Made by a program: the position numbers and the translations under genes
Shown: positions 1 to 4,600 of the stretch, piece by piece
Numbering within the stretch: position 1 is the stretch's first letter
How the letters are laid out: every line of letters starts with the position of its first letter
NCBI RefSeq assembly: GCF_032930845.1
Contig: NZ_CP136758.1
Coordinates: 2,805,001 to 2,869,000, forward strand
Direction: 5' to 3'
Length of the DNA: 64,000 nucleotides
DNA from: Parvularcula sp. LCG005
GTDB taxonomy: Bacteria; Pseudomonadota; Alphaproteobacteria; Caulobacterales; Parvularculaceae
The notes under the pieces: model-generated
Database searches by the model: none
What the model saw: the letters and a program-made list of their open reading frames with translations, nothing else
Told to the model about the DNA's origin: nothing

Positions 1-1295
1 CGGATCACGACAACATGGCCTTCCTTGATCTCGCCACGACCGACGGCAGCGAAGGCATCTTCTTCGCATTCAAAAACGCGGGCCGTGCCCTCGAAAACGC
101 CATCGGAATAGCCAGCGGTTTTCAGGACGGCACCTTCAGGGGCCACCTGGCCGTACAGGACGCGCAGGCCGCCCGTCTTTTTCAGCGGGTTGTCCAGTGG
201 ACGGACCACTTTCTGATCTGGCGCTTCTTCCGCCAGGTCGATCTCTTCGAACAGGGTCCGGCCTGAGACGGTGGGTGCATCCACGATCAGGCCTGCTTCG
301 CGCAGGCGTTTGCCGAACAGACGGCAGCCCCCGGCCTTGTACAGATCAACGGCCACATAGCGGCCACCTGGCTTCATGTCCGCAAACACGGGTGCGATGC
401 GCGACAGCTCATCAAAAATATCGATAGAGAACGGTACGCCCGCCTCTGTCGCGATTGCGGCGAGGTGCAGGACGGCATTGGTGGAACCGCCAGAAGCAAC
501 GACTGAAACGGCGGCATTTCGCAGGGAGGTTTCGGTCACGAAATGGCGCGAATCCGGCCCTTCGAGCGCCCGTTTCGCCGCGAGCATGCCGCAACGATGG
601 GCCTCACCCGCCTTCGCTTCATCCGTGGCCGGTGGATCGCCCGCGCCCAACGGCGCCAGGCCGAGGAATGCCAGGGCCATGGCCATCGTATTGGCCGTGA
701 ACTGACCACCACAGGCGCCGGCGCCGGGGCAGGCGTGGCGCTCAACCGCGTCCAGTTCACTATCACCGATCTGGCCTTGGGAGTGCGCACCGACTGCTTC
801 GAATACGTCCTGAATGGTGACGTCCTTGTCGTTCAGGCAGCCGGGCGCGATGGTCCCGCCGTAAAAAATGACGCCCGGGATATCCATCCGAGACAGGGCC
901 ATGGCGGCGGCTGGCAGGGTCTTGTCACAGCCAACCAGAATGACCGCGGCATCAAGCGCATGGCCGCGCACAGCCAACTCGATCGAGTCCGCGATGACCT
1001 CGCGCGACATCAAAGATGCCCGCATTCCTTCATGGCCCATGGTAATGCCGTCGGAGACGACGATGGTCCCAAATTCGACCGGCACACCGCCGCCTTCGCG
1101 CACGCCCTCGACAACAGGCGCGGCCAGGTCACGCAGGTGCATGTTGCACGGCGTGACCGAAGAATAGGTGTTGATCACCGCGACCATGGGCTTGTCGAAA
1201 TCCTCATCCGACATGCCGGTTGCCCGCAACATTGCTCTCGCCGCTGCCCGTGAGGGTCCTTTGGTGATGGCGTCGCTACGTTTTTGTCGGGTCAT
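1..1295 (-). CDS. ilvD: Dihydroxy-acid dehydratase (3' end outside window)
   Basis: Fe-S enzyme that dehydrates dihydroxy acids to 2-keto acids in valine, leucine and isoleucine synthesis. The 431 visible codons run from ATG at 1295 off the left edge, so the C-terminal part is missing. Recognisable family segments are TPCNMHLRDLA near residue 50, GCDKTLPA, the cysteine-rich HACPGAGACGGQF, and SGGSTNAVLHLAA; the cysteines fit Fe-S cluster ligands. AGGA lies just before the start. Related sugar-acid dehydratases share the fold, but the branched-chain-rich leader peptide directly upstream supports IlvD. Very sure of the family, fairly sure of the substrate. Confidence 0.93.
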   Translation of the reverse strand, partial: MTRQKRSDAITKGPSRAAARAMLRATGMSDEDFDKPMVAVINTYSSVTPCNMHLRDLAAPVVEGVREGGGVPVEFGTIVVSDGITMGHEGMRASLMSREVIADSIELAVRGHALDAAVILVGCDKTLPAAAMALSRMDIPGVIFYGGTIAPGCLNDKDVTIQDVFEAVGAHSQGQIGDSELDAVERHACPGAGACGGQFTANTMAMALAFLGLAPLGAGDPPATDEAKAGEAHRCGMLAAKRALEGPDSRHFVTETSLRNAAVSVVASGGSTNAVLHLAAIATEAGVPFSIDIFDELSRIAPVFADMKPGGRYVAVDLYKAGGCRLFGKRLREAGLIVDAPTVSGRTLFEEIDLAEEAPDQKVVRPLDNPLKKTGGLRVLYGQVAPEGAVLKTAGYSDGVFEGTARVFECEEDAFAAVGRGEIKEGHVVVI

Positions 1296-1328
1296 GGTCC
1301 TGGTCTTCTGTCATTTGTGGTGAAGGTT

Positions 1329-1356
1329 AAAAAAAAAGCTCCCTTTCGGGAGCTTT
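1329..1356 (-). terminator. Intrinsic terminator between leader peptide and ilvD
   Basis: On the minus strand, AAAGCTCCC, a GAAA loop and GGGAGCTTT form a 9-bp stem followed by an unbroken run of T. It lies 22 nt after the leader-peptide stop and 33 nt before ilvD. The left arm (plus-strand 1347-1353) can instead pair with CGGGAGC at 1389-1395 inside the leader gene, so this is most likely an attenuator terminator. It would also stop any read-through from gltB. Confidence 0.85.
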
Positions 1357-1377
1357 GCCTCGGCGCTGCGTATGCGT

Positions 1378-1500
1378 TTACCGATGCCGCTCCCGCGGGG
1401 ATATGAAGTCAATAAGGAGTACGAGACCGACCACGAGCCGAGCCGCGACCCGCGCGAGCGGGACGTTGACGAGGTTCGCTAGGACAGTCGCGTTTACCAT
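1378..1500 (-). CDS. Candidate ilvD leader peptide (attenuation)
   Basis: A 40-residue open frame from ATG at 1500 to TAA at 1378. By my count it holds 8 Val, 7 Leu and 2 Ile, ending with the cluster LVVGLVLLIDFI just before the stop. The codons are mostly GTC, CTC, GTA and CTA, whereas CTG dominates in neighbouring genes. It is followed by a terminator and then ilvD, the layout of ribosome-mediated attenuators such as ilvGMEDA and ilvBN in enterics. The Shine-Dalgarno sequence is weak (GGA about 11 nt upstream). The frame stays open further upstream, but the composition fits a start at 1500. It could instead be a small membrane peptide, though its position argues for a leader. Confidence 0.7.
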   Translation of the reverse strand: MVNATVLANLVNVPLARVAARLVVGLVLLIDFISPRERHR

Positions 1501-1639
1501 CTGATCCAATTCCGAAAAAACGTGCGAGCGAGGCCCGCGTGCAGGTCCGCTACCATAACGTCGCAGGGCACGCAACCACCAAAAGCCATCTTATGCTGAG
1601 TTGCGCGCGCTGTGCGCCGTTTTCTGTCATTGCGCCAGA

Positions 1640-4600
1640 TCAGATGGCGTCTTTCTGCGTTGGCGCCGCGTTGGACAGGGCTTCGATCCTGTCTGTCGGG
1701 GCGACATACCAGAAATGGTCTTTCTCCTCCTCCCAATTGCCCAGCATTTCCAAAGCGCGGGGCGATCCTGTCTGTTCTGCATGACGTGTGACCAACGCCC
1801 GCAATTCTTCTTCTTTTTCAGCTGTGGGGCGCATCCAGTGGACATGCTCTGGATTGACCAGCAACTCAAACCGCGACTCCTGGTCGAACACAAAGGCTTC
1901 GCCGCCGGTCATCCCCGCGCCGAAATTGTCCCCCACGGATCCAAGAATGACGACCGTACCGCCGGTCATGTACTCACAACCATTTGAGCCGCAGCCTTCA
2001 ATCACCGCGACGGCACCGGAGTTGCGCACGGCGAAGCGTTCCCCTGCGCGGCCTGCCGCCAGAAGATAGCCTGCGCTCGCGCCATAAAGGCAGGTATTGC
2101 CGATGATGACGTCCTGGGTCCACGGCTCCTTGGAGAACGGACGAATGACGATCTGCGCACCGGACAGGCCCTTGCCCACATAGTCATTGGAGTCGCCTTC
2201 CAGCTGAATCCGCAGGCCGTTGGCCCCGAACGCCCCGAGAGACTGCCCCGCTGATCCGCGCAGAGACAATGTCAGATGGCCATCGGGCAGCCCCTCAGGC
2301 CCGAACCGGCGAACAATCTCGCCGCTCGTCCAAGTACCGACCGCACGGTGCGTATTCTTCACCGTATAGGTCAGCTGCATTTTCTCCATGCGCTCCCAGA
2401 CGGGAGCAGAGTCCTGCATCACCTGCGCGTCGAGCGTCTCACCAACTTCATTGCGGTGGGTCCGGTCAGAGCGCGGCGGATGATCCGTCTCCTGCGCGCG
2501 CACGAGGAGCGGGTTCAGGTCGAGGTCGTCAAGATCAGGCGATCCACGGCTGATCTGACGCAACAGGTCTGTCCGGCCAATGACGTCATCGATCGACTTC
2601 ATCCCCAGTTGAGACAGAATTTCGCGCACCTCCTCGGCGAGGAACGTCATCAGATTGATCACGTGATCCGCTGTGCCGACAAACCGGCTGCGCAGGCTGT
2701 CATCCTGGGTGCAGATGCCGACAGGGCAGGTATTAGCCTGACACTGACGAACGATCAGACAGCCCATGGCGACCAATGACAGGGTACCGATGCCGAATTC
2801 TTCCGCCCCCAGCATGGCAGCGATAACGATATCGCGGCCAGTCCGCAGACCCCCGTCCGTCCGCAAGGTGACGGATTCGCGCATATCATTCAGTGTCAGG
2901 ATCTGGTTGGCTTCCGCCAGGCCCAGCTCCCACGGACTGCCCGCAAATTTGATCGATGTCTGCGGGCTGGCACCTGTGCCCCCCACATGACCGGCAATCA
3001 GGATGACATCCGCTTTGGCCTTGGCGACGCCCACCGCAATGGTGCCCACGCCAGCAGAGGAAACGAGCTTCACGCAGACGCGTGCTGACGGATTGATCTG
3101 CTTCAGGTCATAGATCAGCTGCGCCAAATCTTCGATCGAATAGATGTCGTGGTGCGGCGGTGGCGAAATCAGTGTCACGCCGGGCGTCGACTTGCGCATC
3201 TTGGCGATGAATTCTGTCACCTTGAAGCCGGGCAGCTGCCCACCTTCGCCGGGCTTGGCGCCCTGCGCCACTTTGATCTCGATCTCGCGGCACTGGTTCA
3301 GATATTCCGCGGTCACACCAAAGCGGCCCGATGCGATCTGCTTGACCGCAGAGTTCCAGTTGTCACCGTTCGGACGCCGCTCATACCGCGCCGGATCCTC
3401 GCCACCCTCGCCGGACACCGACTTGGCGCCGATCCGGTTCATGGCCAGGTTCAATGTTCCGTGTGCCTCTTCGGATAGGGCCCCCAGCGACATGCCGGGT
3501 GTCACGAAACGCTGGCGGATCGAGTTGACACTTTCAACCTGGTCCATCGGCGTTGCGCGTTCCGGCAGGCGGAAGCCGAGCAGGTCCCGCAGCTGGATCG
3601 CGTCCTGCGACTGCAGGATAGCCGAGAACTTCTTGAACTCGACATAGTCGTTGTTCCGCACGGAATTGTGCAGGTGACGGACGGCTTCAGCCTCATAGGC
3701 ATGACGCTCGCCTCCCTTGCGGATCCGGTAGAACGACCCGACCGGCAACCGGGCAAGCGTTTCGTCCCAGGCCGTCTGGTGCAGGCGATAAAGTGCCTTC
3801 TCGATACCGGAGAGCCCGAGCCCGGAAATCCGGCTCGACGCATCGGGGAAGAACTCGGAAATCAGTGTGCGGGACAGTCCGACAGTTTCAAAGTTACAGC
3901 CGCCCCGATAGGCGGACAGCACCGACACACCCATTTTCGAGATGATCTTGAGAAGACCGGCCTCAACCGACTTCTTGTAGTTCACCAGACACTGGGACAG
4001 GGTCAGGTCACCATACCGGCCCGCTTCGTGACGGTCGGCAATGGTCTCCATCGCAAGGTACGGGTTCACGGTCGTTGCGCCGACGCCAATCAGCACCGCT
4101 GAATAATGAGCGTCCAGGCACTCCGCCGACTGAACGTTGAGCGAACAGCGGGAGCGTAGACCACGCTCGATCAGGCGGCGGTGAACGCCGCCCGTGGCCA
4201 GCACCATGGGCACCGGCATCCGGTCCGCAGACTGATGGCGATCGGTCAGAATGATGTGTCCTGCCCCGCCTTTCTCGATCGCGTCACAGGCGTCCTGACG
4301 GATGCGATCAAGGGCTTCAGCGAGGGTGCTGCCGGACGGTGCATCGGAGGATGGCAGCGGCGCGGTACAGTCGATCTCGACCACCCCTTCCCCGAGGGTC
4401 GTTTTCATGCGCTCAAGCATGCCATTGGTCAGGATCGGACCGTCGAGAACAAAAACGTTCGTCTGCGCCGAATCTTCAGCAAGAATATTGCCCAGATTCT
4501 TGAAGCGCGTCTTGAGACTCATCACGCGGCCTTCGCGCAGCGGGTCGATTGGCGGGTTTGTCACCTGGCTGAACCGCTGGCGGAAGAAGTGCGGCAACGG

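Follow-up and report, generated by a model that had tools for sequence, protein, structure and literature searches.

The ilvL leader of Escherichia coli contains Ile, Val, and Leu codons and forms mutually exclusive hairpins, while the ilvBNC operon of Corynebacterium is a different operon in a different phylum. According to PMC1183508, E. coli ilvGMEDA is one of the operons controlled by attenuation. For Caulobacter crescentus, PMC4117421 (citing Tarleton 1994) describes attenuation of ilvBN (ilvIH) with tandem Ile and Val codons, and PMC10272879 and PMC11857589 place an upstream frame or an attenuator at Corynebacterium ilvBNC. The present analysis concerns a leader upstream of ilvD in Parvularcula sp. 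LCG005, in a stretch of 64,000 nucleotides (contig NZ_CP136758.1, positions 2,805,001 to 2,869,000; hereafter "the window," in which all coordinates are given). Judging from its sequence and that of its relatives, this region is highly likely to be a ribosome-mediated transcription attenuator of the operon ilvD-ilvC-ilvG-ilvM-ilvA-leuA-leuC-leuD-leuB.

The locus resembles E. coli ilvGMEDA (ilvL) in being, very probably, an attenuated biosynthetic operon that includes ilvG, ilvM, ilvD, and ilvA. However, the gene order here is ilvD-C-G-M-A-leuA-C-D-B, so the leu genes would share the control, and the leader has neither a conserved segment 1 (the upstream half of a protector hairpin) nor an Rfam match at the gathering score. 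With C. crescentus ilvBN (ilvIH), it shares alphaproteobacterial attenuation of a branched-chain operon (PMC4117421), although acetolactate synthase genes are controlled there, whereas here the leader stands before ilvD, at the head of an ilv-leu operon whose synthase is of the ilvG/ilvM type. The likeness to Corynebacterium ilvBNC lies in the described presence of an attenuator, or of a frame upstream, at an ilv operon.

Putative leader peptide, terminator, and alternative pairings

Between the gltB stop at 1640 and the ilvD start at 1295, the minus strand carries both the leader and a terminator. The leader frame (1500-1378, minus strand) translates to MVNATVLANLVNVPLARVAARLVVGLVLLIDFISPRERHR followed by a stop, and by eye count 17 of its 40 codons specify Val, Leu, or Ile (V/L/I). 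Among 2000 dinucleotide-shuffled versions of the upstream region, none had a frame this rich (9 of 12 V/L/I codons) with a stop 20-160 nt 5' of the gene. Codons 22-30 (1411-1437, minus strand), which encode LVVGLVLLI and end in CTC-CTT-ATT, are the putative control codons.

An intrinsic terminator with a 9-bp stem (minus strand, 1356-1335) followed by T6 was detected by the terminator scan, and the inverted-repeat search agreed. Its 5' arm, supported by covariation as well, is segment 3 (1347-1356), its 3' arm is segment 4 (1335-1343), and the T run spans 1329-1337. Segment 2 (1387-1399, core GGGAGCGG) lies near the end of the frame, where CGGGAGC (1389-1395) is complementary over all 7 nt to GCTCCCG (1347-1353) in the 5' arm of the hairpin. 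An earlier note, made from the sequence alone, had described the 40-codon frame with 17 branched-chain residues, the 9-bp terminator 5' of ilvD, and the CGGGAGC/GCTCCCG match, and all three were confirmed. In the window alone, the match between segments 2 and 3 is modest (7 nt compared to a shuffle mean of 4.6, p ~0.02), and the fold of the whole leader is not unusually stable (z -1.75; 15 of 200 shuffles were equally good).

The operon downstream

The 5' part of ilvD, the first gene of the operon, occupies positions 1-1295 (minus strand; gene matches in the window and the genome) and runs off base 1 of the window, with the remainder beyond it. Its lone appearance is an effect of the window edge. 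The proposal that ilvD stands alone as the single controlled gene was rejected, as eight further pathway genes follow it in the genome. A profile search of the window's genome identified ilvC, acetolactate synthase, and leuA matches directly past ilvD on the same strand, and a stretch of 13.9 kb carries ilvD-ilvC-ilvG-ilvM-ilvA-leuA-leuC-leuD-leuB on one strand, with neighbors that overlap or are separated by at most about 76 nt. The ilvC, ilvG, ilvA, leuA (NF002086), leuC, leuD, and leuB products scored above curated NCBIfam cut-offs, while leuA falls below the TIGR00973 cut-off. IlvM, for which 81 of 96 residues were searched, was below all NCBIfam cut-offs (best E 1.7e-8), as was IlvD below its own when only the 431 residues in the window were searched. 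The target of the leader would be the whole ilv-leu operon, with the nine genes probably on one transcript. Control of nearly the whole pathway by the leader fits the presence of control codons for all three amino acids.

Conservation of the leader among relatives

Upstream regions were collected from the best 80 of 584 relatives, chosen by ilvD similarity, and from genomes of the family. Among 60 family genomes, 43 had an ilvD match at the cut-off; the 17 without a match and one partial match (G050) were left out, and the family set contributed 30 loci, including the window's own, and 12 more. Removal of 10 duplicate upstream regions and of L128, a distant ilvD-like gene caught by the start filter, left 111 distinct regions. 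Within the best 80 of 584 relatives, the closest named kin is Parvularcula, with an ilvD 78% identical to that of P. oceani. Taxon counts are based on record titles and the family search, with Lysobacterales assigned at genus level; one record labeled Bordetella (L020) was counted as alphaproteobacterial because its leader is Brevundimonas-like. Sampling by ilvD similarity makes the set uninformative on other orders.

A V/L/I-rich leader (at least 7 of 12 codons) was found in 84 of the 111 regions, compared to 3.4% of shuffles, and the stricter level of at least 9 of 12 codons was reached by 68 of 111 regions, compared to 0.12%. Alphaproteobacterial ilvD upstream regions carry the leader in 71 of 72 cases, the exception (L127) being a distant ilvD-like gene. 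Twelve of 31 Lysobacterales loci carry it, as does one Acidobacteriota record, which has no terminator. By a simple scan, a terminator is present in 80 of the 84 leader-bearing loci. The four without one (L046, L067, L072, and L105) were left out of the tests of pairing, covariation, and folding, which cover 80 loci.

The arrangement of ilvD-ilvC-ilvG with similar leaders is common to two proteobacterial classes, and this sharing may point to transfer of the operon along with its leader. In 19 loci (L036, L038, L041, L042, L045, and 14 more), leuB lies just upstream of ilvD, and 18 of these also have leuC in the flank examined. Nearly all are Lysobacterales by title, while L082 is labeled only "Proteobacteria." None of the 19 has a leader before ilvD (at most 6 of 12 V/L/I codons), which is perhaps a natural loss of the attenuator. 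Relocation of the leader to leuC in these genomes was considered and rejected, as no frame that ends 600 nt or less from leuC exceeded 5 of 12 V/L/I codons in any of the 19; for a second leuC in L148, the maximum was 6 of 12.

Conservation and covariation of segments 2, 3, and 4

Segment 2 appears to be kept as RNA and not as peptide, because its sequence is retained while the reading frame and the side of the stop codon change. The core GGAGCGG is kept in most rows of the alignment, while the frame reads PRERHR in the window and GAAMEPxR in many relatives. Three loci (L008, L099, and L100) have their stop codon before segment 2 or at its start. Among the Lysobacterales, segments 2/3/4 change jointly (GGCGC/GCGCC/GCGC and GGTGC/GCACC/GTGC), and the terminator base shifts from CCC/GGG to AAA/TTT-like pairs among members of the window's genus. 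One position across the three segments is found as A-T-A, C-G-C, and T-A-T.

Segments 3 and 4 can pair in 461 of 480 alignment cells (96%), compared to at most 57% in slid versions and 86% after permutation of rows, and 39 cells carry double changes (permuted maximum 16). Slid versions reached up to 32 double changes, although the one that did so pairs only 57% of cells. Segments 2 and 3 can pair in 474 of 546 cells (87%), with slid versions at 71% or less and permuted rows at a mean of 84% and a maximum of 86%. The small excess over permutation reflects that most rows share one sequence, and the double changes of this pairing, 12 compared to a permuted mean of 3.6, a permuted maximum of 9, and a slid maximum of 7, are a better sign than the percentage. 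The alignment of relatives, which the earlier note had proposed as a check, bears out both the leader and its mutually exclusive pairings: the antiterminator (2:3) excludes the terminator (3:4), and covariation supports both, clearly for 3:4 and with a smaller excess for 2:3.

In relatives, an additional base at a constant position is common in the 3' arm of the terminator (GGAAGCGGG, GGCAGCGGG, and GGTAGCGGG; e.g., L086 and L022). The form with the extra base occurs in 46 of 80 loci and the form GGAGCGGG without it in 8 of 80. The extra base leaves a bulge in the terminator, whereas an unbroken antiterminator is still possible.

Control codons and ribosome position

Codon usage was compared between the control windows of 81 related leaders with at least 8 of 12 V/L/I codons and the ilvD gene behind each (the first 400 codons or the available part). 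In the control windows, Ile is encoded by ATT in 76 of 93 cases (82%, compared to 22% in ilvD), Val by GTA in 88 of 250 (35%, compared to 3%), and Leu by CTT or CTC in 347 of 433 (80%, compared to 29%). The hexamer CTTATT was found in 59 of the 81 leaders. As a single tRNA usually reads both ATT and ATC, and likewise both CTT and CTC, selective charging alone may not explain the preference for ATT and CTT. Selective charging, in which control codons are chosen for their sensitivity to starvation, is an idea set out in PMC1183508.

The effect of ribosome position was modeled with a mask that ended 12 nt beyond the first base of the A-site codon, so that only the RNA 3' of it was folded. With the modeled footprint, the control codons lie where a stalled ribosome would not reach segment 2, whereas one that completes the leader would cover it. 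For stalls at the eight V/L/I codons among codons 22-30 of the window's leader, the probability of the 2:3 pairing was 0.30-0.56 and that of the 3:4 pairing 0.61-0.38. At codon 31, just past the control run, the 2:3 probability fell to 0.004, and from codon 33 onward the values were 0.00 for 2:3 and 0.87 for 3:4. When the RNA was ended before segment 4, segment 3 was bound upstream under a control-codon stall (median probability above 0.5) in 78 of 80 loci, and with the ribosome at the stop codon this exceeded 0.5 in none of the 80.

These results are consistent with the following mechanism. With ample charged Val-, Leu-, and Ile-tRNA, the ribosome would pass the control codons and move onto segment 2, and the covered segment 2 would leave segments 3 and 4 to pair, halting RNA polymerase at the U tract before ilvD. 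If one of the three amino acids is short, the ribosome would pause at codons 22-30 with segment 2 free, which could then pair with segment 3 before segment 4 exists, allowing transcription to continue through the operon. Translation of the leader is expected, with read-through that would track amino acid supply.

Several observations weigh against this account. The alignment rows are related, so that cells are not independent events, and mismatched cells occur also at the triple position of segments 2-3-4. Segment 3 has a short upstream match that is better than in shuffles (p ≤ 0.05) in only 38 of 80 loci. In the window, the 2:3 probability is 0.42 again at codon 32, so the switch is not perfectly sharp, and L013 and L073 deviated from prediction in RNA ended before segment 4. 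Ribosome-free RNA ended at the same place also has segment 3 bound upstream (mean 0.75 over the 80 loci), much as in the stalled state, and the model can therefore tell a finished ribosome apart from a stalled or absent one but not the last two from each other. At equilibrium with a finished terminator, the antiterminator was preferred in only 27 of 80 loci when the ribosome stalled at the first control codon, and in 21 of 80 when it stalled at the final one. This equilibrium folding is a weak test, after which RNA ended before segment 4 was used, and the weak preference means that the model needs the order of synthesis, which also matters in known attenuators. On balance, the earlier claim of ribosome-mediated attenuation at ilvD is strongly supported by conservation, covariation, and the position of the control codons, although the target is not ilvD alone and the 1:2 pairing is not conserved.

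A possible protector hairpin and the state without a ribosome

The earlier note had also drawn a pairing of segment 1 with segment 2 at 1456-1463/1389-1395. Such a pairing exists in the window, but those coordinates are inexact: the inverted-repeat search gave a 6-nt match at 1458-1463/1391-1396 and a better one of 13 nt (92% complementary) between 1449-1461 (minus strand), the possible segment 1, and 1387-1399. In the window, the upstream pairing of segment 2 does not clearly exceed that in shuffles (p 0.08 on energy and 0.40 on match length). Nor is it conserved in relatives, as p ≤ 0.05 is reached in only 4 of 80 loci by energy and in 2 of 80 by match length, which is about chance, and the 1:2 hairpin was rejected as a conserved element of a trp-type four-segment attenuator.

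A trp-like attenuator with an added 1:2 protector hairpin, and thus strong termination when the leader is untranslated, nevertheless agrees with the 13-nt pair in the window and with the ribosome-free fold of an RNA that starts at 1530 and extends to the U tract, which gives a 3:4 probability of 0.87. Set against this, besides the lack of conservation, are the minimum-energy fold of the RNA from 1500, which has the antiterminator, and the state just before synthesis of segment 4, in which segment 3 of the ribosome-free RNA is bound upstream too (0.67 in the window). We consider this version rather unlikely. In the preferred reading, an attenuator switched by segments 2, 3, and 4, the conserved parts predict no protector hairpin in the absence of a ribosome, and the basal state may differ from that of trp. 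Since 1:2 is not conserved, an untranslated leader may read through in many relatives.

Other explanations and known RNA families

A leader that binds a metabolite (riboswitch) or a protein, with translation playing no role, would equally rely on an RNA switch with exclusive pairings, which exists here in any case, and a weak riboswitch candidate, the "ilvD motif" of Veillonella, is described in PMC8632094. However, the conserved stretch before segment 2 is the V/L/I-coding run with biased codons, no conserved fold was seen 5' of segment 2 in the alignment (no dedicated search for one was made), and the only RNA family at the Rfam gathering score in the window is the small signal recognition particle RNA (RF00169, 50398-50498, minus strand, 57.2 bits), which makes this explanation very improbable. 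A constitutive gltB terminator next to a chance hydrophobic frame, with ilvD using its own downstream start, accords with gltB ending at 1640 on the same strand and with the terminator lying between gltB and ilvD, yet is hardly credible given that a same-strand upstream gltB match occurs in only 9 of 84 leader-bearing loci (flanks of 0.6-2.5 kb, or less at contig ends), that leader and terminator occur together in 80 of 84, and that segments 2-3-4 co-vary and the V/L/I richness is far above shuffles.

No leader family reached the Rfam gathering score in the window or in the six relatives searched; the best match to the leader was Phe_leader (21.1 bits, cut-off 55). Searches of the open-access literature listed papers on attenuators at ilv operons of Caulobacter, Corynebacterium, and others, but none on this leader. 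The survey of Vitreschak 2004, which reportedly covers attenuators of Proteobacteria, may already include some of these leaders. The mechanism is thus classical, of the textbook kind, and the leader family is uncatalogued as far as Rfam and the open-access searches reach.

A candidate promoter

A candidate promoter for the leader (1547-1575, minus strand) consists of TTGCGT, a 17-nt spacer, and TAGCGG, with TGG just before the latter (extended -10), in a form derived from the alignment, and would place the start of transcription near 1540. Of the 10 genus members, 6 have the form TTGCNN-N14-TGNTA, compared to a mean of 0.04 and a maximum of 1 of 10 in plain shuffles, in a test that is partly circular because the form was taken from the same alignment. 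A standard sigma-70 scan detected no promoter there, and the broader TTGNNN form was found in only 2 of 74 other leader-bearing loci. The candidate suggests, as a lead, a separate start of transcription for the operon, located between gltB and the leader. Just 3' of the candidate promoter, also between gltB and the leader, is a weak hairpin resembling a terminator, with a T6 run (1524-1538, minus strand).

A bracket helix in related leaders

In several related loci (L101, L095, L086, L029, L033, L062, L071, and others), a helix of ~10-15 bp brackets the terminator and its U tract. One arm lies just before the terminator and the other just after the T tract, and the 3' half is made only after read-through. 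Outside the window's genus, 34 of 70 loci have a bracket helix of -12 kcal/mol or lower; inside it, none of 10 does. For hand-set groups, arms from the same locus pair more strongly than arms from different loci of that group; the energies were -15.7 and -13.2 kcal/mol in the Caulobacterales-like group, -10.5 and -8.5 in other Alphaproteobacteria, and -12.2 and -11.0 in Lysobacterales. By a looser test against plain shuffles, only 16 of 80 loci had p < 0.05. A role of the bracket helix in the window's switch was rejected at the level of the genus, where the pairing within a locus (-5.3 kcal/mol) is no better than that with other loci.

Taken together with the relatives, a tentative proposal, which we regard as possible but doubtful, is an uncatalogued multivalent (Val, Leu, and Ile) attenuator family before the ilvD-led ilv operon in Parvularcula and its kin and in Maricaulis-, Brevundimonas-, and Lysobacter-like bacteria. 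The family would have no conserved protector hairpin, and the extra bracket helix of the 34 of 70 members outside the genus would be a second, post-termination layer of control.

Implications for branched-chain amino acid synthesis

The codon bias of the control windows makes these leaders a test of selective charging outside enterobacteria. Very probably, as far as can be read from sequence, the leader lets a translating ribosome sense the supply of Val, Leu, and Ile and switch the branched-chain operon on or off. If the nine genes form one transcript, a single leader would adjust the expression of almost the entire branched-chain pathway to the availability of these three amino acids.

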